This document shows, one piece after another, positions 1-25,539 of a stretch of DNA of 64,000 nucleotides (its first letter is position 1; every line of letters starts with the position of its first letter). The DNA is taken from NCBI RefSeq assembly GCF_018336815.1, contig NZ_CP050497.1:2356001-2420000 (forward strand), given 5' to 3'. The notes beneath the pieces were generated by a model, which was not told where the DNA came from, ran no database searches, and saw only the letters and a list, made by a program, of their open reading frames with translations. The translations under genes were made by a program, and so were the position numbers. Source of the DNA: Treponema vincentii (GTDB lineage: Bacteria > Spirochaetota > Spirochaetia > Treponematales > Treponemataceae).

Positions 1-269
1 ATAAAGTCATCAGGATAGGTGATATGCTGAATCATACCGCCGGTTTTCGCGGAACCGTACATCTCGATCAGTTTTTCAGCACCGCGGAGATCATCTTCGG
101 ATTGAGAGACCGTTCCCGTTACGATACCGATATGATACGAGGCATTTTTTCCGTTATCCCCCGACTCGACTTTTTCCGGCTTTGTTTCTGCTTTTTTGCT
201 GCACCCTAAGACGGATATACTCAAGAGCGCAGTCAACAAAACAAATGCGGCATACATGTTTTTTTTCAT
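1..269 (-). CDS. DUF3798 substrate-binding lipoprotein, N-terminal part (copy 1, cut by window edge)
   Basis: N-terminal ~89 codons of the gene described at 28360-29604. This copy gives the better reading of the signal peptide: it starts MKKNMYAAFVLL and has the lipobox LGCSKK about 20 residues in. An AAGGAG ribosome site lies just upstream of the ATG. The rest of the gene would lie to the left of the window. Confidence 0.8.
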   Translation of the reverse strand, partial: MKKNMYAAFVLLTALLSISVLGCSKKAETKPEKVESGDNGKNASYHIGIVTGTVSQSEDDLRGAEKLIEMYGSAKTGGMIQHITYPDDF

Positions 270-425
270 ATTCAACTCCTTTTGATACCAGAAACCTTTA
301 AAACGCTCATCGAGTTTCTAACGATACCCGTCCGTATGAGTATCAGGAACAATAGGCCATACGGTTGGAAGTCCTTAAAATCCCGCATCGGTTTTTAAAG
401 ATTCTGTAAAATATAACTTTCGTTG

Positions 426-455
426 ATAGTAAGTTCTTCGGCAAAAAAATGTCAA
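426..455 (-). promoter_or_regulatory. Promoter of DUF3798/ABC operon (copy 1)
   Basis: On the minus strand TTGACA (450-455) and TACTAT (426-431) are 18 nt apart. In copy 2 the spacer is the optimal 17 nt, one A of a run shorter. Confidence 0.55.
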
Positions 456-617
456 GTATTTTATGTATAAATATGCAATAAAAAGCGTTAAAAACAGTAT
501 TTTTATACAAAAAGAAAAAAGCATTAAAGTTATTTAACCTAGAAACAGCTGACAATGCAGATGCCTACACGAATCAATTTTCAATTACCTTTCTTTCTGC
601 TATACTTTGACGGTATT

Positions 618-1484
618 ATGAGTATTCGATTGACATCCGCACAAAAAGGGATCTTGTGCATCATTTGTTCGGCTTTCTTTTTTACTGTGATGAATTTATG
701 CGCAAAGCTATCCGGCGATTTACCGTCTATCCAAAAAGCATTTTTTAGGAATAGCATTGCCTGTTGTGCGTCGCTCTTTTTTTTGATAAAGACCCGTCAA
801 TTTGCGCTACCGCAAAAAAAAAGAATATTCCCTTCTTTTATATTACGGGCAGTACTGGGCACTGCCGGATTGGTTTCCAATTTTTATGCGGTCAGTCACT
901 TAGCGCTTGCCGACGCTTCTATTTTGGCAAAGCTCGCACCGTTTTTTACCATTTTCTTCTCATTTCTGTTTTTAAAGGAGCGAATCCGTTTTACCCGAAT
1001 TCTTGCAGCCGTCTGTGCATTTGCCGCAAGCCTTTTAATTATCAAACCGGCTTTTGCAGGGGCAGGTCATACCTTTGCAGCTTCTATTGCCTGCTTCGGC
1101 GGTCTCTGTGCAGGCGGCGCGTACACCTGCATACGCTATCTGTTAACACATAAAGAATCAGGCTCATTTGTAGTATTTTTCTTTTCGGCAGCCTCCATGC
1201 TGATACTGCTGCCTTTTTTCGTCTACGGCTTTGAACCGATGAGCTTGCAGCAGTTTTTCTGGCTGCTTGCCGCCGGAGCTGCGGGGGCAGGAGGGCAATT
1301 TACCGTTACCGCGGCGTATTCTTATGCACCGGCAAAAAATATCGCGGTTTTCGACTATACGCAAATTCTCTTTGCCGCAGCATTCGGCTTTTTATTGTTC
1401 CACGAAATACCCGACCGCTACAGCATTGCCGGATATATCATTATCTGCACGATTGCACTGCTGTTATTTTTAAAGAAAGATTAG
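618..1484 (+). CDS. EamA/DMT-family transporter (copy 1, intact)
   Basis: 288-residue hydrophobic protein with about ten membrane segments in two EamA (DUF6) halves, as in the drug/metabolite transporter superfamily. The substrate is unknown. The start MSIRLTSAQKG at 618 was chosen over an upstream in-frame ATG at 555 because EamA proteins begin just before the first helix. A TATACT box sits 11 nt upstream. The C-terminus (ending LLLFLKKD) is intact here and frameshifted in copy 2. The stretch around 815-840 carries three extra bases relative to copy 2, so a short run of residues differs. Confidence 0.85.
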   Translation: MSIRLTSAQKGILCIICSAFFFTVMNLCAKLSGDLPSIQKAFFRNSIACCASLFFLIKTRQFALPQKKRIFPSFILRAVLGTAGLVSNFYAVSHLALADASILAKLAPFFTIFFSFLFLKERIRFTRILAAVCAFAASLLIIKPAFAGAGHTFAASIACFGGLCAGGAYTCIRYLLTHKESGSFVVFFFSAASMLILLPFFVYGFEPMSLQQFFWLLAAGAAGAGGQFTVTAAYSYAPAKNIAVFDYTQILFAAAFGFLLFHEIPDRYSIAGYIIICTIALLLFLKKD

Positions 1485-1634
1485 GCATACTTTTTTTCAT
1501 AACGCCGTCCTGTTTCCAACGAGGCTCGATTATGGTGAATCAACAATCACGGCGCAGCGCGTTCGTCAAAACTATACATCCGCGGCGGTTAGAGAAACGC
1601 CAGGGTATTAAACCACACGCACGAATAAAGTCGG

Positions 1635-2297
1635 TTATGCCGTTACAAGCGGCAGCAGCTCCTGCGGGTTTGCGATAATATGCGTTGCTCCGGCACCTGC
1701 CAATTCGGCACGGTCTCGAAAACCCCACAGCACGCCGACGGTAGTCAACCCCGCGCTTTTTCCGGTGTTTATATCCACGGAGGTGTCTCCGATGTAGAGG
1801 CATTCCTGTTTTTGGCGATGTAAAAGCTCTAAAATCTCAAACACGCCGGCAGGATCCGGCTTGAGCGGAACGCCTTCCCGTTGACCGAAAACGGCGGAAA
1901 AAGTTCCCGCATCAAAAAAAGCTTTGATGATTTTTTGCGTAGTCGGCTGCGGCTTATTTGAAAGAACCGCCAGCTGGACACCTTGATTACGCAACGCTGT
2001 AATCATATCGGCAACGCCGTCATATAAGGTACACAAGTATAAAAAATCGGCATCATAGGCCGCATTGTAATCCTGTAAAATCGTATCTTCCAACGCCGCA
2101 TCCGTAACGCCGTGATATGCCAATACCCTGTGAATAAGCGTCCGAGCCCCGTTTCCCGCAAACTGTTTAAAATTTTCCACCGGCGCAGGGGGTAATCCGT
2201 GCTTTGCAGTTTCGGCGTTAACAAAATAAGCGAGTGTCCGAACGGTATCGGTCAATGTTCCATCCAAATCAAAAATACATGCCTTAATCATAATCAT
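1635..2297 (-). CDS. HAD-superfamily phosphatase, phosphoglycolate phosphatase-like (copy 1, intact)
   Basis: 220 residues. It shows the HAD motifs in order: DLDGT (motif I, residues ~10-14), LSNKP (motif II region, ~114), the lysine of PLKPDP (motif III, ~145) and GDTSVD (motif IV, ~170). An alpha-helical cap lies between motifs I and II, typical of the Gph/PGP subfamily. Family members dephosphorylate 2-phosphoglycolate or similar small phosphates, but the substrate cannot be read from sequence. This copy is unbroken. Copy 2 (30964-31628) has at least three indels. Confidence 0.87.
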   Translation of the reverse strand: MIMIKACIFDLDGTLTDTVRTLAYFVNAETAKHGLPPAPVENFKQFAGNGARTLIHRVLAYHGVTDAALEDTILQDYNAAYDADFLYLCTLYDGVADMITALRNQGVQLAVLSNKPQPTTQKIIKAFFDAGTFSAVFGQREGVPLKPDPAGVFEILELLHRQKQECLYIGDTSVDINTGKSAGLTTVGVLWGFRDRAELAGAGATHIIANPQELLPLVTA

Positions 2298-2335
2298 AAG
2301 TATACAAAATCGAGCGGTAAAAGTGAATCATACAC

Positions 2336-2364
2336 TTGACTTTAAGGGGGGGGGGGGGGATAAT
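2336..2364 (+). promoter_or_regulatory. Poly-G promoter of the repeat lipoprotein, 17-nt spacer form
   Basis: TTGACT (2336-2341) and GATAAT (2359-2364) are separated by exactly 17 nt. Thirteen of those are G, and the whole run is G14 at 2346-2359. The same promoter in copy 2 has G6 and a 9-nt spacer. Homopolymer spacers of this kind drive phase-variable transcription in other bacteria. Confidence 0.7.
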
Positions 2365-2462
2365 GGAAGATAAGTTGATTCTTTTGAGAGCCATGTGTAA
2401 GTGATCCAATCATCCGTGGTGAACAATCGAAAGGCTGCACAAGCTCACAAAGAAACGAAAAC

Positions 2463-2502
2463 GGCATCTAAAAAAATCCCTCTCAAATTTTTTGCAGATG
2501 CC
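2463..2502 (+). promoter_or_regulatory. Hairpin in lipoprotein 5' leader (copy 1)
   Basis: GGCATCT and AGATGCC arms flank A- and T-rich inner arms. The hairpin lies 23 nt upstream of the ATG and just before the AAAGGAG ribosome site. It could act as an attenuator or a stability element. Confidence 0.5.
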
Positions 2503-2524
2503 CAAATAATAAAGGAGTATCATT

Positions 2525-5327
2525 ATGAAGATGAGAAACATGTTACGAGGCATTCTCCTCCTGCTTCTTATGGCATCGGGATTAAGCGTTTTTCTTAGCT
2601 GTAAAGGCCTCAATCCCACCCCAACGCCCTATACGGTAACCTTCGACGCGCAAGGGGGCTCTACGGTAGCGCCGATTAATGCAGCACAGGGTAAAACAAT
2701 TGCAAAACCGGCTGATCCGGTAAGAGCTTCTTTTACCTTCGGCGGCTGGTATAAAGAAAGCGCTTGTACAACGCCGTGGAACTTTGCAACCGATACCGTT
2801 ACCGCGGATATTACATTGTATGCAAAATGGACGCCTGTCGTTACCGTAATGTTCACGGTAAGCGATGGAACCGGCGGTACGCTTACGGCAAAAGCAGACG
2901 GTAAGGAATTAAAGTCGGGCGCACAGGTAAAAAAAAGGTACGGATGTTACCTTTACAGCCGCCGCGGATCCTGGCTACGCCGTTGAATCTTTGAGTGTTA
3001 ACGGAGAAACAAAATCCGATACGAGTATTACGGTAAAGGCGGATAAAGACTTAACGGTAACCGTGAAGTTTAAGGCGGCGGATACGGTTACTTATACGGT
3101 AACCTTTGACGCACAGGGAGGCTCTGCGGTAGCACCGATTCAGGCAGGACAGGGTAAAACGATTGCACAACCGGCTGATCCGGCAAAAGATGGGTTTACC
3201 TTCGGCGGCTGGTATAAAGAAAGCGCTTGTACAACGCCGTGGAACTTTGCAACCGATACCGTTACCGCGGATATTACATTGTATGCAAAATGGACGGCTG
3301 TTGCCCCTGCAACCGTTACCGTAACATTTGCGGTAAAAGGCGGGCACGGTACGCTTACGGCAAAAGCAGGCGATACGAACCTGACCTCGGGAGCATCGGT
3401 AAAAAAAAAGGTACGGATGTTACCTTTACAGCCGCCGCGGATCCCGGCTACGAAATTGATTATATATTGATTAATGAAGAAAAAAAGACCGAGCCGGAGA
3501 TTACGGTAAAGGCGGATAAAGATATAACGGCAACGGTCAAATTTAAGGCACAAAGCGCTCCGGCAACGGAATTGTGCACCGTTCATTATAACGCCAGCCC
3601 GGCTGCAGGCGGTTTGATAAGCGCAAAAGACACAAACGGCACGCCCGTTAGCCCAGAAAAAAGATAGAAAAAGGAACCGTCCTGAATTTACTGCCGTACC
3701 GAATACCGGCTATGATATTTCCGGCTGGACGGGTGCAACGGCTGCATCAGATAATAAAACCGCAACCCTCACCGTAACACAAGACAGCACGGTAACGGTA
3801 ACGTTTACCTTAAAAAAATACACGGTAAACTTTGACACACAAGGCGGCACAGCGGTAACGCCGCTTGAGGTAGAACACGGTAAAACAGTTCAAAAACCGG
3901 CTGATCCGGTAAAGGCTTCTTTTACCTTCGGCGGTTGGTATAAAGAAAACACTTGTACCACACCATGGAACTTTGCAACCGATACCGTTACTGCGGAGAT
4001 TACGCTCTACGCACAATGGAAAATTACTATTCAGTTTGCTCCCTCCAAAATGACCTGTCGGAAAAACGGTGGAGGTGATATTAACCCAGGCGACACAGTG
4101 CATGAAAATGATGAGCTTTTCTTTACTGCGACGCTGTCTACGGGACAGACGGTTGACAAGTGGACGGTCAACGACGTGGACCAGGGTGGACAATCAAGCC
4201 CCTTTTTCATTACAAGGTGAAAACTGCGGATGCGCCGAGCGGCTCTATAAAGGTTGACTGTGCGATAAAAACCGTGGCGCATGGAACCATACAGTTTGCT
4301 CCCTCCAAAATGACCTGCTCGAAAGATGGCGGAGACGATATTACTACAGGTACCACAGTGTACGAAAATGATGTGCTGAACTTTACTGCGACGCCGCCTT
4401 CCGGACAGACGGTTGGTAAGTGGTCGGTCAACAATGTGGAAAAAGACTATGCGACACAACCAGTTTTTTTCTTACACCGTACGGGCTGATGATGTACAAG
4501 GCGGCGCTATAAACATTGACTACACGCCCAGAACAGCGGCGCATGGAACCATACAGTTTGATCCCTCCAAAATGAAATGCCGGAATCAGAGAACCTATAC
4601 TTTTGTTAACACAGGCGACACGGTGTATGAAAATGATGTGCTGGACTTTGCTGCGACGCCGCCTGCCGGACAGACGGTGAACAAGTGGACGGTCAACGGC
4701 GTGGAAAAAGACTATGCAACACAGCCATGGTTTACTTACACCGTAAAGGCTGAAGACGTGCAAGGCGGCGTTATAAACATTGACTACACGCCCAGAACAG
4801 CGGCACAAGCGGTCATACACTTTGATTCTCGCAAAATGAAATGCTGGAAAAACATTGTTTTGTATACCAACACCGGCACACCGGTAACTGACGGCGCTAC
4901 CGTTTACGAAAATGAAGAGCTCATATTTATCGCTCAACCTTCTGCCGGAAAGATGGCCGATTCATGGACGGTAAATGGCGCTCCTGTAAAAACCAGGGAG
5001 GGAAATTTGTGCTGGTATAGGGTTGGTGCGGAGGCTTCCAGCCTTCGCTTCGAGTACACGGAAAAGACTGCAGAAAAGTTAGAGCTGCGGTTCGATACTT
5101 CAAAAATACGATGTACGAAACCGCTTGATACTACACTTATTAATCCCGGCATGCGGGATGAAGGAGATTTTCTCACCTTTAAAACAACAGACGGTTCTGC
5201 AGTAAAATGGAAGATAAACGATGAGTATATCGGTTTCGGAGCAATGCCGGTTCTGGAATTCCCGTTTACCAAAGAGCGTGCGAAAGAATTTGGCAACGAA
5301 AATCTTATGGAAATCAGCTATGAGTAA
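2525..5327 (+). pseudogene. InlB/Listeria-Bacteroides repeat lipoprotein (copy 1, frameshifted)
   Basis: Same gene as 31847-34650. Copy 1 is broken by extra A's near 2932 and 3408, by indels near 3655-3690, 4200 and 4462, all at short runs. The last third (from about 4490) reads through to the stop. It supplies the frame missing in copy 2 near 34230 (here GAAAATGAAGAG). Confidence 0.85.
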
Positions 5328-5340
5328 AAAATGAGTATGC

Positions 5341-5414
5341 AGGCATCTTGAAAAAACTTTTTCAAGATGCCTCGTATACGGCAGGTTTCGGCGAAAGCCG
5401 GAGCCTGCCGTATA
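5341..5414. other. Two adjacent hairpins between lipoprotein gene and tRNA-Gly (copy 1)
   Basis: A 15-bp stem (AGGCATCTTGAAAAA, loop AC) at 5341-5372 is followed by an 11-bp stem TATACGGCAGG at 5375-5414, which encloses a GAAA-capped CGGC/GCCG helix. See the copy-2 entry. Confidence 0.7.
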
Positions 5415-5432
5415 AAAAAATTCAGATTCCGA

Positions 5433-5461
5433 TTGACATATCAGGTGTTTTTCGGTATAGT
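5433..5461 (+). promoter_or_regulatory. tRNA-Gly promoter (copy 1)
   Basis: TTGACA (5433-5438), a 17-nt spacer and TATAGT (5456-5461), with the tRNA starting 15 nt after the -10 box. Confidence 0.75.
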
Positions 5462-5475
5462 AGCTTCATATTTTT

Positions 5476-5547
5476 GCGGATGTCGTATAACGGCTATTAC
5501 CCCAGCCTTCCAAGCTGGAGACGAGGGTTCGACTCCCTTCATCCGCT
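5476..5547 (+). tRNA. tRNA-Gly(TCC) (copy 1)
   Basis: 72-nt cloverleaf: acceptor GCGGATG/CATCCGC, anticodon stem CCAGC/GCTGG with loop CTTCCAA (anticodon TCC), T arm GAGGG-TTCGACT-CCCTT, discriminator T. CCA is not encoded. Identical to 34799-34870. Confidence 0.93.
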
Positions 5548-5668
5548 TATAACCGCATACTTACCCTTTTTAACCGAATAACCCATTAATTTTTGTTTTA
5601 TGTTTAACTAATGTACTTACCGTACATCATAGTCAGCAGAAAAAGCGGAAAATTCTTCATTCAGAAGC

Positions 5669-5695
5669 TCAACAGACCGGTTCTTTTGCCGATAA
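5669..5695 (+). promoter_or_regulatory. Sigma-28 type promoter of fliS (copy 1)
   Basis: TCAA (5669-5672), 15 nt, then a perfect GCCGATAA (5688-5695), 35 nt upstream of the fliS ATG. Same sequence as copy 2. Confidence 0.65.
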
Positions 5696-5730
5696 GATAG
5701 AAGGAACACGCGATCGCATGGGGGATTAAA

Positions 5731-6177
5731 ATGAGTTATAACAGTCAAGCCTTAACGGCATATAAAGAGACACGTGTAAAGACAGCAAGTCCGGGTTCTC
5801 TGATCATTATGCTGTATGATGAGGGTATTAAAAATATTACCCTTGCCATTGAAGGCATGCCTGACGGAAAAATCGAAGCGGAAAATATCGAACGCATTCA
5901 TCAGTACATCTTAAAAGCGCAGGATGTTATTACCGAGCTAATGGCATCCTTAAATATGGATGAAGGAGGAGAAATTGCTGAAAATCTCTTATCGCTTTAC
6001 TCTTTCTTTAACCAACAGCTTTTTCAAGCCAATATGCAAAAGGATCCGCAACCGCTTATCACAGTACGTAGCATGATGGAAGAACTGCGCGAAGCATGGC
6101 ATCATGTTGTCAATTCAACTGCCGCCGCTGCAACAGAAATGAAACCGGTTGTTTCCGGCGTCAATATAGCAGGGTAA
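5731..6177 (+). CDS. fliS: Flagellar export chaperone FliS (copy 1)
   Basis: 148-residue product identical to that of 35054-35500, where it is described. No frameshift in this copy. Confidence 0.9.
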   Translation: MSYNSQALTAYKETRVKTASPGSLIIMLYDEGIKNITLAIEGMPDGKIEAENIERIHQYILKAQDVITELMASLNMDEGGEIAENLLSLYSFFNQQLFQANMQKDPQPLITVRSMMEELREAWHHVVNSTAAAATEMKPVVSGVNIAG

Positions 6178-6181
6178 GACC

Positions 6182-6658
6182 ATGCATACAGCCACGCTTA
6201 ACGATTCCGAAATTGCCGAACGGGTTGCAGTCCTCAAACGATTCAGGTTGCTGTTAGAGCAGCAGCGGCTTAAATTCCGCGAATACCTGATGGTATTGGA
6301 AAAACAAGAAAAAAGCATTTCCGACGAAAACGCCGATGCTGTCTTACAGCACACGGAGCTTGAAGAATCAATTATTGCCGAAATATTTACTATTCAAAAA
6401 GTAATCGATCCGCTGGAATATATGTATACCAATATCTGCAAGAATACACAACATTCGGATATTCCTCATCTTAAAACGGATTTGGATGACTTACAAAAAA
6501 GAGTTTTGGCTCAGAATAAAAAAAACCGCGAACTGCTGCAAACGCATATTGCCGGCTTACGGCAGCAAATTGCATCGCTGAAACGGCCTTATGCGCATAA
6601 AGAGAGTATCTATGCCGGCACAGCACGTACAGCAGCGCTCGTCGATCTCAGTTTATAG
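6182..6658 (+). CDS. FlgN-like flagellar chaperone (copy 1)
   Basis: 158-residue product identical to that of 35505-35981, starting 4 nt after the fliS stop. Confidence 0.65.
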   Translation: MHTATLNDSEIAERVAVLKRFRLLLEQQRLKFREYLMVLEKQEKSISDENADAVLQHTELEESIIAEIFTIQKVIDPLEYMYTNICKNTQHSDIPHLKTDLDDLQKRVLAQNKKNRELLQTHIAGLRQQIASLKRPYAHKESIYAGTARTAALVDLSL

Positions 6659-6706
6659 ATAATATTCGAACCTTATGCTCTGTATTTTTTACGCTGCACA
6701 TACCGT

Positions 6707-7579
6707 ATGAATCTTCCGTTACCGGCACAGCATCCGGCAAAGAGAAAAGGCTATCCGTATATATGCGGAAAATCGGCAGCTGTATGACGTACCGTTCCGA
6801 CATTGTGTGGATCGATATTGTCGATAAGAGCCAAGATATCCTTATGTTGATAAAAACTCAAAAGGAGTTAAGCTATTTTCCGGTATGTGCAGGTAAAATT
6901 GATGCGGTTATCGGAATCCTGAGTGTCCGAGACTACCTGCAAAGCAGACTGGAAACACCGCCGCCGAATTTACAAAAGATTTTAACCAAACCGCTGTTTA
7001 TTCCCGAATCGCAAACCATTAAACATACGCTTGAATTACTGAACGAGCATAAAGCAAATGCAGCCTGTGTTATCGATGAATACGGCGGCATTGAAGGTTT
7101 TATAACAAAGAACGGCTTATTAAACAGCGTATTTAATGAAACCGTTCGGACATCCGAGCATACCAAACGGCAACAGCTTACGCAAGCCGACGGCAGCATT
7201 GTTATAAGCGCACAGATGAGCCTTGACGAAGTGCAGGTTCTACATCTTTTAGAAGATATCGAACGCCCCCCCTACGGAAGAATACTACACCTTTGCCGGT
7301 TATTTGTTTGCACGATTCGGTGCCATTCCTCATCCGGGTGATAGTATTGATATCGGCTCCTCTATCTGTACGGTACTCAGTATGCATGGACAGCGAATCG
7401 ATCAGGTCGCGATAAAAAAAAAAAAGAAGCATAAACGCCCCCATCCTTTACGAACAGCCTCTCTTTATAGCATCCTACAATATTTACGGTTAAATATAGA
7501 AAATAGCCGCTCTCTTGCAAAAGAATATCTTTATGAATATAATCAAGCCCTATTAAGTATCGATACGGATTATATATAG
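6707..7579 (+). pseudogene. CBS-pair/CorC-HlyC domain protein (copy 1, frameshifted)
   Basis: Same gene as 36030-36755. One A is missing near 6740, so in this copy the frame opens only at 6763. A C/T-run indel near 7267 breaks the frame again. An A11 run at 7414 shifts the end so that the protein would run about 50 codons further, to the TAG at 7577. Confidence 0.75.
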
Positions 7580-7634
7580 CCGAGAAAATCGATATTTAGG
7601 AAATATTTTATTTGAGAGAGGCTTGACAAAATGA

Positions 7635-9756
7635 ATGAAAAAGTATAACCCCCGAAAATATTTTTCAATTCGACGTAAACTTATCTGTGTATTCGGCTTG
7701 TTAATGCTGCTTGCGATTTCTGTTTTAGGAATTACCGCAACAACGAAAAAAAAAAAAAAGCGCTGTTGGAAAAAGTCCACATCCAACTTATCGAAGAGGC
7801 GAAAGACACAGCTGCTCTGATAGATGAACGCATTAATACTTTTGTTGCCACCCTCTCCGCTATCGCACGGCAAGAGGCCCTGAGAAAAGATATCCCGTAT
7901 GAACAAAAATTTCTATCCTTGCAAAATGAACTCGCATTCAACAATTCTGAAATAAATGCATTCGGACTTTGCAACAGGATGGGAAATGCATGGCTTACCG
8001 ATGGGAGACAATTGAATGTTGCCGATCGGGAATATTATCAATCTGCACTCAACGGAAAAACATTTGTAACGGAACCGATGCTTTCGCGGGTAACCAATGA
8101 GCTTTTCACATTTTTCTCCGTTCCGATTTATGATGACGAAAAGAACATTATCGGTGTTTTATATGCACGGGTAGATGCATCAGGTCTTTCAAAAAATGAT
8201 ATCCGATATTGTAATTGGAGAAACAGGTGACTGCTATGTTATCGGCCTTTCCGCAATACCATCGGAGACCCTGACATTGAAGCGGTAAAATCCCAAGAAA
8301 ACAGCATAGAAAAAGCGAAAAGCGATCCTTCCTTTGTCGAAATAGCCGCATTCGAAAAAAAAGCGTTGCAATCTACAGAATCGGATGCAGGATACTTTCA
8401 GTGGAAAGGCGAAGAACAAATAGCTGCTTTCGGCGTAATTGCAAGTACCGGATGGCGGGTTATTCTTTCCGCTCCCATACATGAATTTTTAGGCAGTATA
8501 ACGGTTATGCAAAAAGTATTGTATAGCATTACAACTATAATCTTAATACTCGCAATTATCATCGTGTATATCACTGCATATAAAATAGTAAAGCCGATAA
8601 AGGCAGCAGTGGAAGCATTAAAAGATATAGCACAAGGAGAGGGTGATTTAACGGTACGCTTACCGGTCGTAGGGTATGATGAGATAACCGATCTTTTCCA
8701 ATTACTTTAATCAGACAATAGAGAAGATCGGTACATCAGTTAAAACGGTCGAAGATAGCCTCAGAGGTTATGCAGGCTGTCGGTGAAGAGCTTGCAAGCA
8801 ACATGACCGAAACGGCAAGCGCCGTACATCAAATAAATGCAAATATCGAAAGCGTTAAACAGCAAGCCCTTACACAGGCTGCAAGCGTTACCGAAACAGC
8901 AACTACTATCGAAGAGATAGTACGCACTATTCGACAGCTTAACGGCAGTATCGAAACGCAAGCCGCGAGTGTTGCGCAATCTTCTGCATCAATAGAACAA
9001 ATGGTTGCCAACATTACATCCATCGGGCAGACGCTCGGTAAAACCGACGAAGCTATCAAAAGCCTTACCGGTGCTACGGGAGACGGAAAACACACATTGA
9101 TAACATCCAATGCAGTTACCAAAAAGATTGCCGAAGAATCGGGCTCTCTGATAGAAGCATCAAGCGTTATTCAACATATTGCATCGCAAAAACAAACCTG
9201 CTGGCAAATGAATGCTGCAATAGAAGCCGCACACGCAGGGGAAGCAGGAAAAGGTTTCGCCGTTGTCGCAGATGAAATCCGCAAACTTGCCGAAGATTCT
9301 GGCTGCTCAAGGGAAAACGATAACAACAACACTTTAAAACGCTATCAGGTGAAATTGAAACGCTTTCCGATTCTTCCAAAATCGTCGAAGGAAAATTCAA
9401 TACAATCTTTACCCTTGCCGAACAGGTTAAAGAGATGAGTAACCGCCTTACTGAGGCAATGCGCGAACAAGAACACGGCAGCAGAGAAGTGCTTACCGCT
9501 ATCAAAAAAAATATCAATATGGTAACGTTGAGGTTCAAGCAGGTTCCGCTGAAATGCTGAAAGGCAGTGAAGGAGTCGCGGAAGAAATGCGAAAATTGAT
9601 AACCTTACCCGCGTTATTACCGACAGTATGAACGAAATGGCTTCCGGCGCCGTACAAATCAACAATGCGGTACAGGAGGTTAACGGTATTACGCAGCAGA
9701 ATAAGCGGAGTATCGAGAGTTTAGTCGCAGAAGTTGCTAAATTCAAAATCAATTAG
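7635..9756 (+). pseudogene. Methyl-accepting chemotaxis protein (copy 1, frameshifted)
   Basis: Same gene as 36956-39070. This copy gives the more convincing N-terminus ([16 protein letters not shown], then a membrane helix). It is broken near 7745 (A11 run), 7907, 8195, 8255, 8695, 8760, 9190, 9300, 9510 and 9597. Confidence 0.85.
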
Positions 9757-9803
9757 GGAAGGGAAGACACTTTTTTCGGATAAAAGATTTCTTCCCTTCC
9801 CTA
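9754..9803. terminator. Bidirectional terminator between chemoreceptor and lptG-like gene (copy 1)
   Basis: Stem TAGGGAAGGGAAG (9754-9766) pairs with 9791-9803 and includes the chemoreceptor stop codon. The genes are convergent. A second small hairpin CTTAGGGT/ACCCTAAG follows. Confidence 0.6.
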
Positions 9804-9905
9804 GAACCCATCCTATTTTCAAAATAGCCGCTTAGGGTTCTACCCTAAGAACCCGCCGTGATTCTAGGGTTTAGTTCCGGAACGGAAGTTTAGCAGGTAT
9901 GATTT

Positions 9906-10980
9906 TTACGTGCGCGCTATTCTCAGCATAGCAATGCTCAAGAACGTAAAAATTAAAAGAGGGAGAAACGCGCCTGCAAGCGGGGAAATATACTCCCATT
10001 TTGCAAAAAGCATGGTCATCATCTCGGTAACATAATAGAGAACTGCAAGGGCTAAACTAAAGAGCAAACTCATCAGCAGGATATTTTTTTAAAGCGGCCG
10101 CCGATGGAAACAAAAAAAAAACAAAACAATGAACGTTGTAAACGGAATGAAAAACGGCGGTAATATTGTGAAAGGTATTCATGGTAGGGTAACCCCATTT
10201 TTTTAAATTATTGATAAAGAGTTTTGCCTGTGCAATAGTCATCTCATCAATAGATGTAATATTCCGTTGAAAGGTTTCGGGAGGTTCGAAAAAAGTTTCG
10301 CATCGATTGAATCTTGGTAGAGAGGACCTCATTATCGGCGGTAAAGGTGTAGATTGATTTATCCGTTACCTCCCAATGATCGGTTTGCCACTGTGCCGAA
10401 TTACCTTTTATAATGGTAGAAATATCACCCGATTCGGTACGTATCACAATCAGCACATTGTTCAATTCCTTTTGATTATCATCGTAATAATCGGCAAAAT
10501 ACACAACCTTCCCCGAATCGGATAAAACAACCAAATCATTGCTATTCAAATTCTGTTGAGGTTCCAAGATAGAATTTACCAGTGCAATTTTCTGCCGTTG
10601 AAAGTGAATTAAGATACGATCCTCAAAATAAAACATCCCTATCGATAACAAAAAATCCGCACAGTACAAGCGGAGCCACCAACACGGCAAGCGGCATACC
10701 GGAAGCAAAAGATCGAAGTAAGTTCATTTTTGCGTACATATTTCCCATTGTATACGAACTTGCAAACAAAAAACAGAAAAAGAGGCATTGCAAACGATAT
10801 ACACTTGGGCAAATACAAATACATCACCCGAAGCAGTGTAACAAAGCGTGCTTGATTTTGCAAATACTGCGGTAGATTGAGAAAAAGATCACCAAGCTGC
10901 AGGAGCAAAATAAAAAATAAAATCGTTATCACAAAGACAGGGAAAAAGAGCTGCAGCAAGTATCGTTGAAGAATTTTCAT
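9906..10980 (-). pseudogene. LptG/YjgQ-like permease (copy 1, frameshifted)
   Basis: Same gene as 39220-40291, with indels near 10090, 10120, 10200, 10290, 10650 and 10780. Its ATG overlaps the stop of the preceding lptF-like gene. Confidence 0.75.
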
Positions 10981-12096
10981 CTGAATAATTTTTTCCCCAG
11001 CAACACAATGGATGCGGTAAAGACCATAATATTGGGTACCCACATGGCGGAAGTACCGTTCCAATCAAGCCGTAAACAGAGCGTTTGCCCGCCCATAAAC
11101 AGCGCCCAATATGCAACGGCTATTAAAAGACCTAATACAAAACCAACACCTTGATTATGTACCTTACCGGCACTGCTGATGGCAAAGGCAAGCAATACAA
11201 AAAAGAAGGCGCCGAAAGGAATAGAAAACTTCTTATGCAATTCCATCCAATACAGATTGAGTGTCCGATTATCTTCGTTTTGCGTTTGTTTTTCCTTTAT
11301 ATCTTTATAGAGATCAACAGAGGACATTTCAGAAGGTCCAATCGTATTAAAATAAGAGGACTTAATACTCTTTGCAAGTATGTTGTAGGTTACCGCTTCG
11401 CCATTTACCGCATCATATTTTTTTTTTATCAGAAGGATCTAAGATAAGAAGGTGCGGCAGCGCCATTTTGAGTGACATCACGATTGACGGATCATCGGAC
11501 TTTTCAATCTCGGCAGTCTGTGTGCCAAGTATACGGAATGCTTTATCCGCATTCTTATCAACAATCAAAAGATTATGAATTTTTCCATCCTGTATTAATC
11601 CCGTTACAACAACCGCATTACGATTGCGTTTTACGGAATAAGAAGAAAGCTCCAGCGCAGGGGTTGAGGTTGCAATATCCCAATAGACGCGCCTAAAATT
11701 AACGGCGCTGGCAGGCAGCAATACATCGTTGGTAAAAAAGGAAACAATTGAAACCGCTAAACCGACCAATAACACCGGTAACATTAAAAAGCGAGGCGAA
11801 ATACCCAGTGCGTTCATGGAAAGAAATTCCAAATCACTGACAAAGCGACCGATCCCCATGAGCGTACCGATCAAGGCGGCAAAGGGAGCGGCATTCGCGA
11901 TAACAGCAGGAAGCGAATAGAGCATCAGCAATGCGACATCTTTAAAAGGAGCTTGTTTTGAAAGGACATCTTCCGCCAGCAACAGAATATTATTAACAAA
12001 AAATATAAAGAATAAAAACAAAAAGCAGACAAAAAAGTACAGCAGCATCTCTTTGACAATATATAAAAAAAGCTGCTTTTGTCTTATGCCTATCAT
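10977..12096 (-). pseudogene. LptF/YjgP-like permease (copy 1, frameshifted)
   Basis: Same gene as 40288-41410. The first ~225 residues (from MIGIRQKQLFLYIVKEML) are open in this copy, and the C-terminal ~115 residues are open after an indel region near 11330-11420. This is the better copy for the N-terminal half. Confidence 0.78.
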
Positions 12097-12191
12097 CTTT
12101 TATACCGTTAATCACTGTTATAGGAACAGGGATGTCTCAAAAGTTGGTTACTTTTTCAACATCCTCATGCCCTAATCACCCTTATATCAAT

Positions 12192-12647
12192 TTACGCAAT
12201 GCCGGTAGAGCCATATCCGTTGCAGCCCCGTCCGGTTTTTGAAAGCTCATCGGTTTGTACAAAACTCACCTGAACCGCCTGCGCAACTACGGCTTGTGCA
12301 ATCCTGTCGCCGTTTTGTACGGTAAAAGGTTCGCTGCCGAGGTTTACCAACAGCACGCACAGCTCTCCGCGGTAATCGGAATCAACCGTACCGGGAGTAT
12401 TGAGCACCGTAATACCGTACTTGAGCGCAAGCCCCGACCGCGGACGCACTTGCAGTTCGTACCCCACAGGTAATTCAACAAACAGTCCCGTCGGGATGAG
12501 TTTACGCTCCATCGGGTTCAGCGTTACCGGCTCTGCAAGATACGCATGTAAATCCGCGCCTGCAGAACCGGGTGTTTGATATTCAGGCAGCAAGGCTCCT
12601 TCCTTGAGTACGGAAAAAACCCTTACCGCCCCATCAGCAATACTCAC
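12192..12647 (-). CDS. dut: dUTPase (copy 1)
   Basis: 151 residues, identical product to 41508-41963. GTG start overlapping the pnp stop (GTGA). Confidence 0.92.
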   Translation of the reverse strand: MSIADGAVRVFSVLKEGALLPEYQTPGSAGADLHAYLAEPVTLNPMERKLIPTGLFVELPVGYELQVRPRSGLALKYGITVLNTPGTVDSDYRGELCVLLVNLGSEPFTVQNGDRIAQAVVAQAVQVSFVQTDELSKTGRGCNGYGSTGIA

Positions 12648-14770
12648 CGTTTTTCCTCAGTGAACGGCTTAATGGCTGCCGGTTTTTCCTGCTCTTCACA
12701 GGCATCGATATACGAAAGATTTAAGCGGCCGAGCTTATCGATTTCCAATAGTTTGACGGGTACTTTTTGTCCTTCCTGCAGCACATCGGTAACTTTTTCA
12801 ATGCGGCTGCGCGACAGCTTGGAAATATGACAGAGTCCTTCTTTACCGGGCAGAATTTCGATAAAGGCGCCGAAATCCTTGATGCACTTAACGGTACCTT
12901 CATAAATTCTGCCGACCTCAGGATCTTCCACAATGCCGGTAACCGCAGCCTTGGCACCGAGCGCAGACGAAGAATCCCGCCCGTAGATGGTAACCGTACC
13001 GTCGTTCTCGGTATTGATTGTTACATGGTATTGTTCGGACAGCGCCTTGATAATCTTTCCGCCCGGCCCAATGAGCGCCTGATCTTATCAACCGGAATCT
13101 TGAGTGTTTCAATCCGCGGCGCATACTTGGACACTTGCTCGGAGGGTTTGGAAATAGTCTGATTCATAATGCCGAGAATATGGAGCCGGCCTTTTTTGCC
13201 TGCTCAAGCGCTTTTGCATAATCTCAGCGGAAACGCCGGCGATTTTAATATCCATCTGGAAGCCGGTGATGCCTTCTGCGGTACCGGCAACTTTAAAGTC
13301 CATATCGCCGAGGTGATCTTCTTCGCCCAGAATATCGGAGAGTACCGCAAAGCGGCTTCCATCGGTGATAAGCCCCATTGCAATACCCGCTACCGGTTTT
13401 TCATCGGAACGCCGGCGTGCAGCAGCGAAAGCGTACCGCCGCACACGGTTGCCATTGACGAAGAACCGTTAGATTCCAGAATTTCGGAAACCACTCGGAT
13501 GGTATACGGGAACGCTTCTCTGGACGGAATCATCGGCATCAAGGAGCGGTGCGCAAGGTGCCCGTGCCCGATTTCACGGCGTCCGGTTCCAAGCCGTCCC
13601 ACTTCACCGACCGAATAGGGCGGGAAGTTATAATGCAGGATAAAATTCTCCCGCCGGTCGCCTTCGATATCGTCATACACTTGTTCGTCAAACACGGTAC
13701 CGAGCGTAACAACGGCAAGCGACTGTGTTTCCCCGCGGGTAAAACACCGCAGAACCGTGCGGCCGCGGCAAACTCCGATCTCGCAGGTAATAGGGCGGAT
13801 ATCTTCCAAGCCGCGCCCGTCAACCCGCAAACCTTTTTCCAGTATGTTTTCGCGCAAAAATATGGTATTCCATGTCGTCGAATAAAGCGGCAAAGAGCTT
13901 CGCCTGTGTTTCATCGGCGAGCTGCTCCACATATTCTTCGGCGAGCGCCTTTCTGATAACATCGCAGGCTTCGCGGCGCTCTACCTTGCCCTTTGTATAT
14001 AAGGCTTTGGAAAGTTCGGGGTAGGCCTTTGCGTAAATAGCATCTTTTATTTGCAAGCGTTGCATTCACCGGTGCAAGCGGTAGTTTTTCCTTGCCGCAC
14101 GCCGCGCGAAGCTCATTTTGCAGCGCACAGATCGCTTTGATAAATTCATGCGCTTTTTTTCCAAGGCCTTGAGCATAATCTCTTCCGACACCTCGTGAGC
14201 GCCGCCTTCTACCATCGTAATGCCTTCGGCAGTACCCGCGACAACGATTTCCATATCAGCCTTTTCAATCTGGCTGAACGTCGGATTTATTATAAACTCA
14301 CCGTCGAGGTATGCCACGCGAGCGCCCGCAACCGGCCCGTTAAAGGGAATGTCAGAAATAACAACCGCAGCCGAACTTGCAATAACCGCTAAAATATCCG
14401 GCGGATTGATCATATCCGAGGAAATACAGGTCGGTACAATCTGAATTTCCCGTCCGAATGCTTTTTCAAACAACGGCCGCATCGGACGATCGATGAGCCG
14501 TGAAACTAAAATCTCTTTATCCTTAGGACGGCCTTCACGCTTGATAAAACCGCCCGGTATCTTCCCCGCTGCATAGTATTTTTCATTATAATCGACGGTT
14601 ACCGGTACATAATCGAGTCCCTCAACTGCCGTAGATGACGCACACACCGTTGCCAACACTGCGGTTCCGCTGAATTGCGCATAAATAGCGCCGTTTGCCT
14701 GTTTTGCCAGATGGCCTGTCTCTAAAATTAACTCTTCATTTCCGATCTTATACGTTACTCTCTGTCTCAT
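12644..14770 (-). pseudogene. pnp: Polynucleotide phosphorylase (copy 1, frameshifted)
   Basis: Same gene as 41960-44087. Frame breaks near 13080 (two bases changed in a GCTCCGATC stretch), 13195, 13220, 13400, 13740, 13770, 13860, 14050 and 14155. The C-terminus KPAAIKPFTEEKR is readable here and is lost in copy 2. Confidence 0.85.
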
Positions 14771-14814
14771 AATCTTTCCTTCTATATAATTACAATTCCT
14801 CAAATTACTTTATA

Positions 14815-14849
14815 AAAACGGCTACCTACCCGTTTCCGATAGGTAACCG
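14815..14849 (-). terminator. rpsO-pnp intergenic terminator (copy 1)
   Basis: On the minus strand CGGTTACCTA and TAGGTAGCCG form a 10-bp stem followed by a short T run. Confidence 0.6.
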
Positions 14850-14935
14850 TCTTATGCTGCTTAAATCAATAGCAAGCGCCTCTAAAATTCAAGTGAAATT
14901 TTAAAAAGCCCGTATATGCGTTAAGCAGCCTGATC

Positions 14936-15205
14936 TTACTTACGTAAGCCTAATTCCTTAATGAGGGCACGGTAGCCTTCGAGGTTGGTACGCTTGTAGT
15001 ATTTCAGCAAGCGCCGACGCTGTCCTACCAATACCAAAAGTCCCCGCTGACTGCTCTTATCCTTTTTATTGATTTTGCAGTGCTCGGTGAGCTGGCGGAT
15101 CCTATCGGTCAGCAAGGCAATCTGAACTCTGGTATTGCCCGTATCTTTTTCGTTTGCACCGAATTTCATAACAATCGATGCAGTGTTTTCTTTTGTAAGT
15201 GCCAT
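14936..15205 (-). CDS. rpsO: Ribosomal protein S15 (copy 1)
   Basis: 89 residues, identical product to 44253-44522. Confidence 0.95.
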
Positions 15206-15208
15206 TTC

Positions 15209-16037
15209 TTACTCCTTCCGTATAAATTCCAATTTATGTATCAATGTTCCTGCTGCAGCGGACGGAACCGGCGCTGGGGTCTCTTCGGAAACTTCAAGCA
15301 AAGTATCCGTCACTTTCACCTGTACGGGAATAATCACCCCCGACCGTAAATATGCGCAGGCTGAATACTGTCCGCTCTGTGGGAGAATCTGTGTTACCGC
15401 CGACTTTTCGATAGACCATACAGTGTTCTCTCTCCGCTGGACTATTTTTTCGACATCTAAGAAAAAAGGATACCCGAGAAGGTCTTTTGCAAGGGTAAAA
15501 TCAGCTTGTTCAACGGCCTGCCGTATCGCGCTTGAGCTGATACGCACCTGCCGTGCCGAATAAAGCTGTTCAATGGAATCAAAACAAAAGCCCCTTTCAC
15601 GAGCAAGGCGCTGTAAGTCCCCTACTCCCGTATCGTGGCGATACCCGCAGGTAAAATCACTGCCAACGGCAAGATATTTTATGCAGATAGTTTTTATTAG
15701 TATGTCAAAAAAAACAGCGCCTTTCATTCTAGCAAAATCAGCGGAAAAGTCAATCAGCACCGTAAAGCTAAATCCTTGCTCGGCAAATTTTTGCAGCCTC
15801 ATTTCCAGTGTAGAAACATCGCCTGTATACATGTTGCCTGCCTTAACCGACCGAGGAGAGCGGAAAAAAGTGATGATTCCTGCGGGGATACCCTTACGCT
15901 GCGCAGCCTTCAACACCGCCGATAAGATACGCTCGTGCCCGCGGTGCGGCTCCGTCAAACCCGCCTATCGAAATAGCGGAACCTTGCGGATATATGTTTT
16001 CTTCTTTTATTAAATCATCCCAATAGATAATCTTCAT
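15209..16037 (-). pseudogene. ribF: RibF-type FAD synthetase (copy 1, near-intact)
   Basis: Same gene as 44526-45355. The reading frame is open from the stop to about 15958; an indel in the GGCTCCGTC stretch near 15950 breaks the first ~26 codons. The C-terminal half is better here than in copy 2. Confidence 0.82.
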
Positions 16038-16050
16038 CACTCCAGCCTAT

Positions 16051-16123
16051 CAGGGTAAACGTATCAGATTCTTTGTGATATACACCGCACGAATCAATTT
16101 ACGCATCTGATGCGTTTACCCTG
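16051..16123. other. 19-bp inverted repeat between truB and ribF (copy 1)
   Basis: CAGGGTAAACGTATCAGAT (16051-16069) pairs with 16105-16123 at 18 of 19 positions, the remaining one being a G-T wobble. The loop is about 35 nt. Confidence 0.75.
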
Positions 16124-16136
16124 CCCCTGTTAAATA

Positions 16137-17295
16137 CTATTTGATAATGAAACCGGTTGCCGTTTTTGTGATCAAACCTGCGCAACGTCCTTCGTAAAAC
16201 ACTGCGATAGTTCCGCCGTCCGCAAGCGGCTGCGCACCGGTAAACCAGTGCCTACTGATGGGCTTCCCGTTCATAAATGCAGGATAATATTTTGCTTGAA
16301 GTTCCGCCGTCTGAAAATGTATAGCACGGCTAATCGCTTCGCTTAAAGGTAGCGCAGCTTGCCTTACCTCTTCTTCGGTAACCGAATACGATGCAGGCGG
16401 CGAATCCGGCACGTACGCTCCACACTGCCCTACCCTTCTATCATAGACGGATTTCGGCGCTGCGCGGGTTGAATCCGCATCTGCCGCATTCACCGCAGCG
16501 CTCCCGAACGGCTGCAGCGCCGAAAAGCCTGCCGCCTGTTCAAGGGTAAACGGCCCGACTGCCGTTCTTCGAAGCGCATAGACATACGCGGCAGAACCGC
16601 ATCGATGGGCAATATCCCGCACCAATGAGCGGATATACGTCCCCTTGGAACAGCGCACGCACAGCACGGCGCCAAGGACTTTTTGAACTGCGACCGCTTC
16701 GGATTTTTCGGCGCCTAATCCTTTTTGAACCGTACTCAATGCGGCTACATTATCGCCGGAATGGTCGGCGCCTGTATCCGCACCGAAATTTTCAGCCCTC
16801 GTATCAGTGTCCGGGGCATAAAAAACTTCTTCAATATCGATGCTATAGACGGTAACGGTTCGAGGCGGAACGGTTACCGCTTCTCCGCGCCGTATTCTAT
16901 CGGAAAGTCGCTCCCCCGCCTGCTTTACCGCCGAATAAACAGGCGGCACTTGCTCGATGGTTCCGGTCAGCTGCTTGATTGCCGCAATAAAGTCGGCATA
17001 CACCGGAAGCGGCTTTTCGGCGATGACGGTGCCTTCGGGGTCAAGCGTATCGGTTTCTTTTCCAAAATAGAACAGCACGCGGTAGGTTTTATCGAAATCC
17101 GTGATATACGGCACCAGTTTGGTTAATCTCCCCGAAAGCAATACGAGTAAACCGTCGGCAAAGCTGTCGAGCGTGCCGGTGTGCCCTACTTTCTTAGTGC
17201 CGAGCGCATGCTTTTACCTGCCAGAGGGAGGTAAAACTGGTTATACCGGACGGTTTTGCAAAGGGGATAATAAATTGAGGTTCACTCTTGGGCAT
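16137..17295 (-). pseudogene. truB: tRNA pseudouridine-55 synthase TruB (copy 1, frameshifted)
   Basis: Same gene as 45455-46612. The single break is an extra T near 17214; the remaining ~334 codons to the C-terminus TATGFIIK are open, making this the better copy for the C-terminal part. Confidence 0.85.
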
Positions 17296-17659
17296 TGTTC
17301 CCGAATCCGACGCGGCTTTTAAGGCTTCAAGCTTTTTTTACCATATTAAAGCCTTCTTCGATGCTTTCGTCATAGATAAAAGTAAACTGAGGACACTGAT
17401 GGATATGCAGTTTTTTTGCCAAGTTCGTGCGGATAAATCCCGCCGCGTTTTCCAATCCCCTGACACCCTGCTTTGTCTTGTGCGCATCCATAAAGCTGGA
17501 AACGTACACCTTTGCATACGCAAGATCGCCGGACACTTCCACCCTGTTTATCGAAAGAAAGTTGGAAACGCGCGGGTCTTTTATCTTTCCCGAAAAAATC
17601 AGCTGAGAAATTTCCTCGCGGATTTGCTCTGCGAGTTTATCCAAACGGAACTCACTCAT
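17282..17659 (-). pseudogene. rbfA: Ribosome-binding factor A (copy 1, frameshifted near the C-terminus)
   Basis: Same gene as 46599-46976. It is open for about 108 codons and then disturbed by an extra T near 17335 and a missing G near 17301. Confidence 0.85.
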
Positions 17660-20369
17660 TCGGCTGCTTCTCCGTGATCGCCGGTATGGGCTTCGGGCGC
17701 TTCATAATGCTGCGTATCCGCCAACTTGCGTGCCACCTCAACGGTTTCGATAATCTCAAGCTGGTCGCCGACCTTTATATCGTTGAAGTTCTCAAGCGCA
17801 ATACCGCATTCGTAACCTGCAGCCACTTCTTTGACGTCATCCTTAAACCGGCGCAAGGACGCAAGCTTACCTGAGAACACCACAATACCGTCCCTGATAA
17901 GATGAACCGTACTGCTCCGTTTTACCGTACCTTCAAGCACGTAAGAACCGGCGATATTACCGACCTTAGGTACCTTAATGACGCTGCGGATTTCAGCCAT
18001 ACCGATAACGTTTTCTTTAATATCGGGACTGAGCATTCCTTCCATAGCCTGTTGAATTTCTTCAACGGCTTTATAGATAACGTTATACTTGCGGATATCG
18101 ACTTTTTCCTGCTCTGCAAGCGCCTTTGCCTGTGATGTGGGGCGGACATTGAAGCCGATAATAATCGCATTGGAATCCGCTGCGGCAAGCATAACATCGG
18201 AGTCATTGATAGCGCCGGCAGAAGCATGGATAACATTCAAGCGTATTATTTTTTGGTAGACAGCTTTTCAAGCGACTGCTTTAAGGCCTCTACCGAACCC
18301 TGCACATCACCTTTGATAATTACTTTGAGTTCAAGGACTTCGCCGTCGGTAATCGTTTCATACAGATTATCGAGCGTTACCTTCTTCACATTGCGAGAGT
18401 CTTCAAACCGCTTGAGCTCCTGCCGTTTTAACGAAATCTGACGAGCCATACGCTCAGATTCGGTTACTTGGAAAGGATCCCCTGCATTGGGCATTCCTTC
18501 AAGTCCTAAAATCTCTACCGGCATACTCGGTGTCGCTTCGTCAATCTTTTCGCCTTTGTCGTTAAAGATAGCGCGGACACGCCCCGAATACACACCTGCC
18601 ACATAGGGATCGCCGGTATGGAGCGTTCCACGTTGTACGATAATCGTTGCGACAACACCGCGCCCGTGATCGATCTTTGATTCAATAACCTTTCCTTCCG
18701 CGCGGCAATCGTAATTTGCCTTTAACTCCAGCACTTCCGCCTGCAACAGAATTGCATCGAGCAGGTCGTCGATACCTTTTTTCTGCAAGGCTGAAATAGG
18801 AACGTATATCGTGTCTCCACCCCATTCTTCGGCAACAAGGCCGAGTTCACCAAGGCGGGTCTTTATCTTATCGGGGTTCGCTTCCGGTTTATCGACCTTA
18901 TTGATTGCAACGATAATCGGAACCTTTGCATCCTTTGCGTGGTTCAGCGCTTCAATCGTCTGAGGCATAACGCCGTCATCGGCTGCGACTACCAACACGA
19001 CGATATCGGTAACCTCAGCGCCACGCGCGCGCATCATCGTAAATGCCTCATGGCCGGGCGTATCGAGGAAGGTGATATTTCCCTTGGGGGTAGACACCAT
19101 ATAAGCGCCGATATGCTGAGTAATGCCGCCGAACTCCTGTGCAGTAGTAATTGGTACTGCGGATAGCGTCGAGTGTTTTGGTCTTACCGTGGTCTACATG
19201 TCCCATAATAGTAACAACCGGCGGCCGCGTCAGCAGCTCGGCATCTTCATCACTCACAGTCTCGATAATGGTTTCATCATAGAGGCTGACGATTTTAACA
19301 TCGCATTCGTATTCCGAAGCAAGGATGGTTGCAGTGTCCGCATCAATGGACTGATTCATCGTTACCATCATGCCCATTTCCATTAGTTTGCCGATAAGTT
19401 CAGAGGCTTTAAGGTTCATCTTCCGAGCTAACTCCGCAACGGAAATGGATTCCATCATCTCGATGCTCTTAGGAACGGCGCTTACCTTTTCTTTAGCCTT
19501 CTTCTTTGCTGCAGTAGCTTCTCTTCAAAGAATTCGCTCTCCTGATCCTTGCGTGAATAAGTCTTTTTGCCCTTAAACGCTTTTTTAGTATTCTGTTTGT
19601 TGGTTTCAAGCGGCATCGGGCTTGACATCGGCCGACCGCCGCCGCCTCTATTCTGTCCGCCTTGGAAACCGGGCTTATTGAAACCGCCTGTACGCGGTCT
19701 ATCTGACGAATAGCCGCCCATGCGGCCTCCGCGATTGTTCTCACCGCGTCCATCTTGCTGCGTTCGCCCCTGTCCGCCTGCAAAACCGGACTTATGCCGA
19801 TTCCCTTGGTTACCGAAACGGCTAACCGGTTTTGAGCCGCCCGCGAGATTCCCCGCGCGCCTATCAGGGCGTTTGCTGCTTAAATCCAGCGAACGGATTT
19901 GATTTTTATTATCCGATTGCGTCTGTTGAGTCTGAGATTGGGTTTCGGCACTCTCTCTCCGTATCGGTTTTTCATGCCGGTTCTTATCATAGCGCTCTGT
20001 GCGTTCGCCGCTGTGCTTTTGTACACGTCGGTTTTCTTCATTCTGTGCATACCCTGAATTTTTTCGTTCCGAAGCCTGCGCAGGATGCTCCGCCGTTTTT
20101 TTCAGCTGAGCGGAATGATCCGTAGGAGTCGAAGATACAACAGGGCGCCGCTTCTGCTCACCGGCAGGTCGATTCCCTGCAGTGTTTGATGGGGCGGAAT
20201 TCGACGCGGGATGCGCCACCGGCTTGAGCTTACGCTTTATGGTTCGTACCGGTCTCTGCTCTGCAGTTTGCTGTACCTGAGGCTGAGCTACCGGCGTCGA
20301 AGCCGGTTCAGGCCTTGCCTTTTTGAGAATAACTTTTTGTTCCTGAGTATTTTCGATACCTTCTGCCAT
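17656..20369 (-). pseudogene. infB: Translation initiation factor IF-2 (copy 1, frameshifted)
   Basis: Same gene as 46973-49683. The N-terminal ~300 codons are intact here and broken in copy 2. Breaks lie near 18247, 19148 and 19512. The two copies together give a complete protein. Confidence 0.88.
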
Positions 20370-20376
20370 ACAACTC

Positions 20377-21837: not shown

Positions 21838-21846
21838 CACGACTCC

Positions 21847-22295
21847 TTAGATCTTATTCAATTTCGCTTTTTTTATATCCGCATACCGGATATTTCTTTG
21901 CCCGCCGGAACTATTTAAACAGAGACCCGTCGAATCCGCAGCCAGCAATTCTCCCTCAAGCCAATCGGGACAGGAAACTTCCAATACCTTTATATTTTCT
22001 CCAATAAAGGCTTGAAATTCCGCTGCATTTTTTATTACTCTGTTAAGCCCCGGAGAGCTTACTTCCATTTGAATATCCTGAGAATTGAGCAAAACCTCTG
22101 CACGCGATAATAACGCTCGATGTACCTTTGAGCAATCGTCAATTCCAACTCCATTTTTACTGTAGATAACGGCCTTTACCAGCCACATTGTTTTTGATGA
22201 ACAATCTGCAAATCAACCAATTTATATCCGAGACCGGTAACCAGTTGTTCATAATCGGTAAAATACGGAACGGTTTCTTTTTGCACATATTCCAT
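21847..22295 (-). pseudogene. rimP: Ribosome maturation factor RimP (copy 1, frameshifted)
   Basis: Same gene as 51163-51612, with one T missing near 22190. Otherwise identical. Confidence 0.85.
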
Positions 22296-22321
22296 TGCAT
22301 CAACTCCCGTAAACAAAAAAA

Positions 22322-22338
22322 GAGCCGTTTGAACGACT
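22322..22338 (-). terminator. Leader attenuator hairpin before rimP (copy 1)
   Basis: GAGTCGT/ACGGCTC stem followed by T7 on the minus strand, between the promoter (22377-22405) and the rimP ATG. Confidence 0.55.
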
Positions 22339-22376
22339 CCTGCCTAGACTTATAAGGATAATAAAGTTCTTTATGG

Positions 22377-22405
22377 ATAGTACCATAAAGAAAAAGTTTA
22401 TGCAA
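22377..22405 (-). promoter_or_regulatory. Promoter of rimP-nusA-infB (copy 1)
   Basis: TTGCAT (22400-22405), 17 nt, TACTAT (22377-22382) on the minus strand. Confidence 0.55.
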
Positions 22406-22511
22406 GCCATAGGTTTCCGCCTGTATCGATGCCGGTAGCCAGTCAATCGGCTAAAACCAACGCTGCCAAGACATACCCTACGCCAAGGCAGCAAGCATAA
22501 CGCCAAGCCCG

Positions 22512-25536: not shown

Positions 25537-25539
25537 AAT

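Follow-up and report, generated by a model that had tools for sequence, protein, structure and literature searches.

A predicted poly-G-spacer promoter of a putative lipoprotein gene in Treponema vincentii, candidate for phase variation and member of a dispersed family of promoter-like sites

The window analysed here is a stretch of 64,000 nucleotides (nt) of Treponema vincentii, positions 2,356,001-2,420,000 of a genome (G000, hereafter the own genome) that consists of one contig of 2,711,688 bases. Ahead of a predicted lipoprotein gene it carries a promoter-like element in which the hexamers TTGACT and GATAAT are separated by TTAA and a run of Gs (Table 1). The run extends from 2346 to 2359 and comprises 14 Gs, the 14th being the first base of GATAAT; no other G or C run in the window reaches a length of 8. 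On re-reading, the G14 tract and 17-nt spacer that the initial annotation had described at 2336 were borne out, as were the G6 tract and 9-nt spacer of a second copy at 31667. The homopolymer is placed between recognisable -35 and -10 hexamers, as in porA of Neisseria meningitidis and tp0126 of Treponema pallidum; the tprL arrangement, in which the tract overlaps the -10 and leaves the spacing unchanged, is not that of the window site, where the run reaches no further than the first base of GATAAT. The element is predicted to be a sigma-70-type promoter belonging to a dispersed Treponema family with poly-G spacers and, judging from its sequence and that of its relatives, it is likely a promoter-spacer switch of the lipoprotein gene. 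In its longer version, an 816-amino-acid (aa) frame, this gene encodes three repeats of the Flg_new kind (Listeria-Bacteroides) and three of the Flg_new_2 kind (divergent InlB B-repeat), and the predicted lipobox and InlB-type repeats suggest that the product may be of a surface type. A search of genome contigs with the lipoprotein returned 80 loci, swamped by the widespread InlB-type repeat, and was left out of all counts.

Related elements were searched in a genus set of 7 genomes and in a wider family set of 145 genomes from 20 genera. G001 was taken as T. medium ATCC 700293, G002 as T. pallidum Nichols and G064 as T. pedis T3552B, all three being inferred identities, and T. pedis is a separate genus in the taxonomy used. 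Among the 16 G runs of at least 10 in the own genome, four (799679, 1836508, the window site and 2563381) lie between TTGACT and either TATTAT or GATAAT, with GGAAGA following, and the run at 603804 has the -35 with the -10 absent. The consensus of the family is TTGACTTTTGA-Gn-TATWATRGAAGA, and the form CTTGACTTTTGA-Gn-TATWATRGAAGA recurs at several loci in four genus genomes and in T. pedis. The shared block measures ~ 30 nt at most loci compared, and the -10 of the other members is mostly TATTAT or TATAAT.

In the genus set the motif GGGGGGGGTATWATGGAAGA, allowing at most 3 mismatches, gave 32 matches against 1 for the reversed motif. The pattern TTGAC-N2-9-G6-N0-14-TAWWAT matched 23 times, in 4 of the 7 genomes, compared with 0 matches for the reversed pattern and 0 for the version with C6 in place of G6. 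One of the 23, at 431k of G001, is not of the family form and was set aside; RGAAG follows the -10 in 21 of the remaining 22, though it is absent from the search pattern. When the G requirement was dropped, 31 sites were obtained (reversed 4), 20 of them with at least 7 Gs, 5 with a short or interrupted tract and 6 with none. Because the composite recurs in the genome and in the genus against few reversed and zero poly-C matches, the window element is more than a chance arrangement. In the wider family set, with at most 2 mismatches, 33 of 145 genomes, belonging to 6 of the 20 genera, had a match and 112 had none, whereas the reversed control matched in 2 of 145. A match at 277k of G002 was rejected as its poly-G is missing.

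The first genes downstream were assessed with a lipobox rule of our own, not SignalP, at 26 genus sites, matching genes in several species being counted separately and window copy 2 omitted. A lipobox was found in 15 of 26, compared with 10 of 105 background frames (p = 5e-7), and in 11 of 18 (p = 4e-6) when matching genes, grouped by hand, were counted once. The gene at L275 was positive by the rule and was rejected; its protein is a transposase, which lowered the count from 16 to 15. In a small control of 25 promoter-like matches without poly-G, 3 of the 17 followed by a frame had a lipobox (p = 0.01), and in other genera 11 of 19 first genes did, L318 being doubtful. Targets come from different protein families and also include a chemotaxis receptor, a DUF2715 protein and lipocalin-like proteins; a Pfam scan of the target regions gave no match for 9 of 19 proteins.

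Tract and spacer lengths were compared at sites with both hexamers and RGAAG, window copy 2 being dropped. The 25 distinct genus sites display 2-17 Gs and spacers of 7-22 nt, and the six T. pedis sites have spacers of 16-21 nt. Outside the genus and T. pedis, among the loci returned by the wider family search and 20 stretches rather than among every match, spacers are 15-19 nt in 13 of 13 sites. At matching loci the tract length varies between species. The window locus has G14 in the own genome and G16 in G001, with 91% upstream identity, and a chemotaxis-receptor locus outside the duplication described below has G7 in the own genome versus G14 in G001, although all 86 nt compared upstream are identical, identity over 400 nt downstream is 99.75%, and the receptor proteins share 99.5% identity over 642 aa. 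A lipoprotein locus shows G4 in the own genome, G14 in G001 and T10G4 in G005 (proteins 71-87% identical), a different locus shows G2 in G005 versus G12 in the own genome with 96% identity over 794 columns spanning the site, and at a further locus G3 in G005 is matched by G16 in T. pedis (proteins 83% identical). A small gene that we read as zinc-ribbon-like has G17, G15 and G16 in three species and G14 in T. pedis (61% protein identity). Furthermore, two loci of G003 with identical sequence over 300 nt upstream and 400 nt downstream carry G9 and G10 respectively, TTGAC being missing at both. That the hexamers are kept where the spacer should be inactive would fit a reversible switch better than decay.

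The best reading of the family appears to be phase variation of surface lipoproteins through promoter spacers at several loci, of the porA and tp0126 kind. RNA polymerase with the main sigma factor prefers a hexamer spacing near 17 nt. The sites would act as promoters whose G tracts change in length by slipped-strand events at a high rate within a population, and the resulting spacer would set transcription, near 17 nt being on and other lengths off. Each locus would switch independently, so that one clone would hold many combinations of surface lipoproteins. According to this scheme one expects the window promoter to be on with G14 and copy 2, if it is real, to be off; elsewhere in the own genome the 2563k site (16 nt) should be on, and those at 799k (20 nt), 1836k (22 nt), 2584k (12 nt) and 455k (8 nt) should be off.

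The second promoter copy of the window (TTGACT at 31667-31672, TTAA, six Gs at 31677-31682 and GATAAT at 31682-31687) lies in an exact head-to-tail duplication of 29.3 kilobases (kb), the halves of which differ by 34 substitutions and 111 indels. As many as 86 of these indels are in homopolymer runs of 3 or more. The largest single one is the 8 nt between G14 and G6, and the next is 4 nt, so that the initial annotation, which had given 1-3 nt for differences elsewhere, was nearly right; at an A run at 7747 the copies differ more, through substitutions and a 2-nt indel. Relative to G001, frame-breaking indels amount to 2.49/kb in copy 1 (59 in 23.7 kb), 1.96/kb in copy 2 (44 in 22.5 kb), 0.49/kb in the left flank (4 in 8.1 kb) and 1.95/kb in the right flank (9 in 4.6 kb), the last value weakening the contrast between copies and flanks. 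In the 60 kb of G001 examined the duplicated region is single-copy, and in the single-copy pieces of the region the own genome and its relative G001 show mostly 86-95% nucleotide identity. The simplest reading is that two overlapping contig ends were probably joined unmerged. Since the indels of the duplication are mostly homopolymeric, the G6 copy probably does not represent a separate allele of the genome, and as the two copies most likely arose in assembly, the comparison of G14 with G6, used at first as an argument for switching, is weak evidence. The proposal of a phase-variable promoter of a repeat lipoprotein is nevertheless a well-supported candidate, through the family and the variable tracts at matching loci.

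Table 1. Features of the window (positions are those of the window)
Feature	Position	Strand	Remark
-35 hexamer TTGACT (predicted)	2336..2341	+	read off the sequence; recurs in family sites
17-nt spacer, TTAA (2342-2345) plus 13 Gs	2342..2358	+	G run continues into 2359
-10 hexamer GATAAT (predicted)	2359..2364	+	read off the sequence
GGAAGA box 3' of the -10	2365..2370	+	common to family sites
Predicted lipoprotein gene, copy 1: 153-aa frame, lipobox cysteine 26	2525..2986	+	shortened by frameshift relative to copy 2
Second promoter copy, 9-nt spacer, six Gs	31667..31687	+	within probable assembly duplicate
Predicted lipoprotein gene, copy 2: 816-aa frame	31847..34297	+	Flg_new and Flg_new_2 repeats
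First half of head-to-tail duplication	1..23057	.	starts 6283 bases before the window (-6283..23057)
Second half of duplication, probable assembly artefact	23057..52371	.	junction at window 23057

Several observations weigh against the switch reading. Spacers of 16-18 nt are found in only 9 of the 25 genus sites and spacers of 15-19 nt in 13 of 25, our rule detects no lipobox in about 11 of the 26 first genes tested, and the own genome and G001 have equal tracts (G12/G12) at the locus where G005 has G2. The two copies in the window are, as said, probably an assembly artefact, and long G runs are hard to sequence, which makes single assembled lengths uncertain (ten Ns stand in one tract of G006). 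One may go further and take all tract differences for sequencing or assembly errors around a promoter of one fixed length. The predominance of homopolymer indels between the window copies, with G14/G6 fitting a badly read run, the frequent frame-breaking indels in both copies and in the right flank, and the Ns within the tract of one relative all agree with this. Errors fail to explain, however, why long G runs occur repeatedly between -35 and -10 hexamers, why G2, G3 and G4 stand at loci with G12 to G16 in other species, or how G7 and G14 arise between near-identical flanks outside the duplication, and we regard such a general explanation by error as quite unlikely.

A different possibility is that the promoters are real and that the tract works, instead of through hexamer spacing, by way of a regulator or DNA structure, such as a G-quadruplex or a protein bound at the GGAAGA box. 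The Gs are always on the strand of the -35 and -10, with the C version absent, conservation of the RGAAG box exceeds what a -10 requires, and the tprL tract acts without a change of spacing (PMC7864442). Common descent may also account for the strand bias, though, and the position of the tract exactly between recognisable hexamers and the narrow spacer range in all 13 sites outside the genus and T. pedis speak for spacing; we consider the regulator or structure alternative unlikely. It would also be conceivable that the element is what remains of a small dispersed repeat with an incidental G tract, and that gene-family duplication brought it to its place ahead of lipoprotein genes. Some sites of the same genome do have common upstream flanks (288k/291k and 946k/947k of G001), and one locus resembles a recombination between two copies. 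However, with a shared block this short at most loci compared, with targets of different families, and with matching gene-promoter pairs recurring in T. pedis in a different -35 context, this origin seems very improbable, and a promoter-spacer switch is the reading that we retain.

The recombination-like locus is the one at 2584k of the own genome, whose upstream part matches the promoter at 291k of G001 (92%) and whose downstream part matches the promoter at 288k of G001 with its chemotaxis gene (98%), the two matches overlapping by ~ 160 nt around the poly-G promoter. G001 has ~ 3.6 kb extra with a 711-aa lipoprotein gene between two poly-G promoters, where the own genome has one promoter (L213 versus L220), and a deletion in the own genome and a gain in G001 are indistinguishable from the data. 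In G006 a homologue of the 711-aa lipoprotein is present and the receptor gene was not found in the 5 kb examined. The 3.6-kb difference possibly resulted from recombination between two promoter copies. More tentatively, and with a rather low likelihood in our estimate, TTGACTTTTGA-Gn-TATWATRGAAGA could be a copied 'slippery promoter cassette' that makes many unrelated lipoprotein and sensor genes independent on/off switches; identical cassettes would recombine and so add or remove whole genes behind a switch, as the 3.6-kb difference suggests, the outcome being a combinatorial surface coat under a single dispersed promoter family, and the shared downstream box may allow common regulation.

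Further observations were made beside the family. At L215 (~ 719,200 of the own genome, G000:C1) a family promoter with an interrupted tract, GGGGGAGAGG, precedes a lipocalin-like lipoprotein, and this tract might be locked at one spacing. The ten Ns of G006 are inside the G tract of a family promoter at L244 (G006:C1 ~ 698,900), as if it were unresolvable. In G001 the counterpart of the window lipoprotein gene has a DDE transposase gene just past its start, 3' of the poly-G promoter (L223:697-1860). The motif CTTGACTTTTTATGGGAG was set aside from the family as a distinct, hairpin-like repeat that lacks a long run of Gs; it is a second dispersed repeat, found beside hairpin-like sequence in G000, G001 and G004-G006, with at least 15 copies in G001 and at least 7 in G000. 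Moreover, the own genome has long G runs near the starts of coding frames at L128 (107041), L131 (623934), L137 (1661120), L140 (2462414) and L129 (394388). Three of these five genes start with a lipobox-like signal, and at the assembled length four of the five frames appear out of frame and one in frame, which makes them candidate translational contingency loci.

No description of a dispersed family of sequence-related poly-G promoters that has lipoprotein genes of cultivable treponemes as its targets was found in the open-licence literature, which includes few subscription journals; homopolymers were counted per genome in PMC8049484, and their placement in promoters is absent from the portion covered. 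In T. pallidum Nichols clones, length varies in 24 of 46 poly-G/C tracts of at least 8, and within a clone more than 90% of reads agree at nearly all tracts (PMC10013896). If the reading proposed here is true, cultivable treponemes of oral and animal origin would offer a multi-locus form of the mechanism on which it could be tested directly, and this form would account for how these spirochaetes might change many lipoproteins together while having few regulators.

In the T. pallidum tprE/G/J and tprL genes, as at the window site, the promoter region of a putative surface protein contains a poly-G whose length varies, but the tract of the window site lies between the hexamers, except for the first base of GATAAT. 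In porA of N. meningitidis the poly-G is between the -10 and the -35 and 17 nt is optimal (PMC7864442, PMC3639595); the likeness considered here is one of arrangement, and porA is one outer-membrane porin gene. In tp0126 of T. pallidum, an OmpW homologue, the poly-G is again between -35 and -10 and transcription is best at a 17-nt distance (PMC7864442), and at 148 kb G002 has G9-TAGAATGGAGTA, which resembles the 3' part of the family. This is one such match in G002 and is without the TTGACTTT 5' part, whereas the Treponema family described here recurs several times per genome, in most cases ahead of a predicted lipoprotein. The mechanism proposed for the window site is one already known from porA and tp0126.
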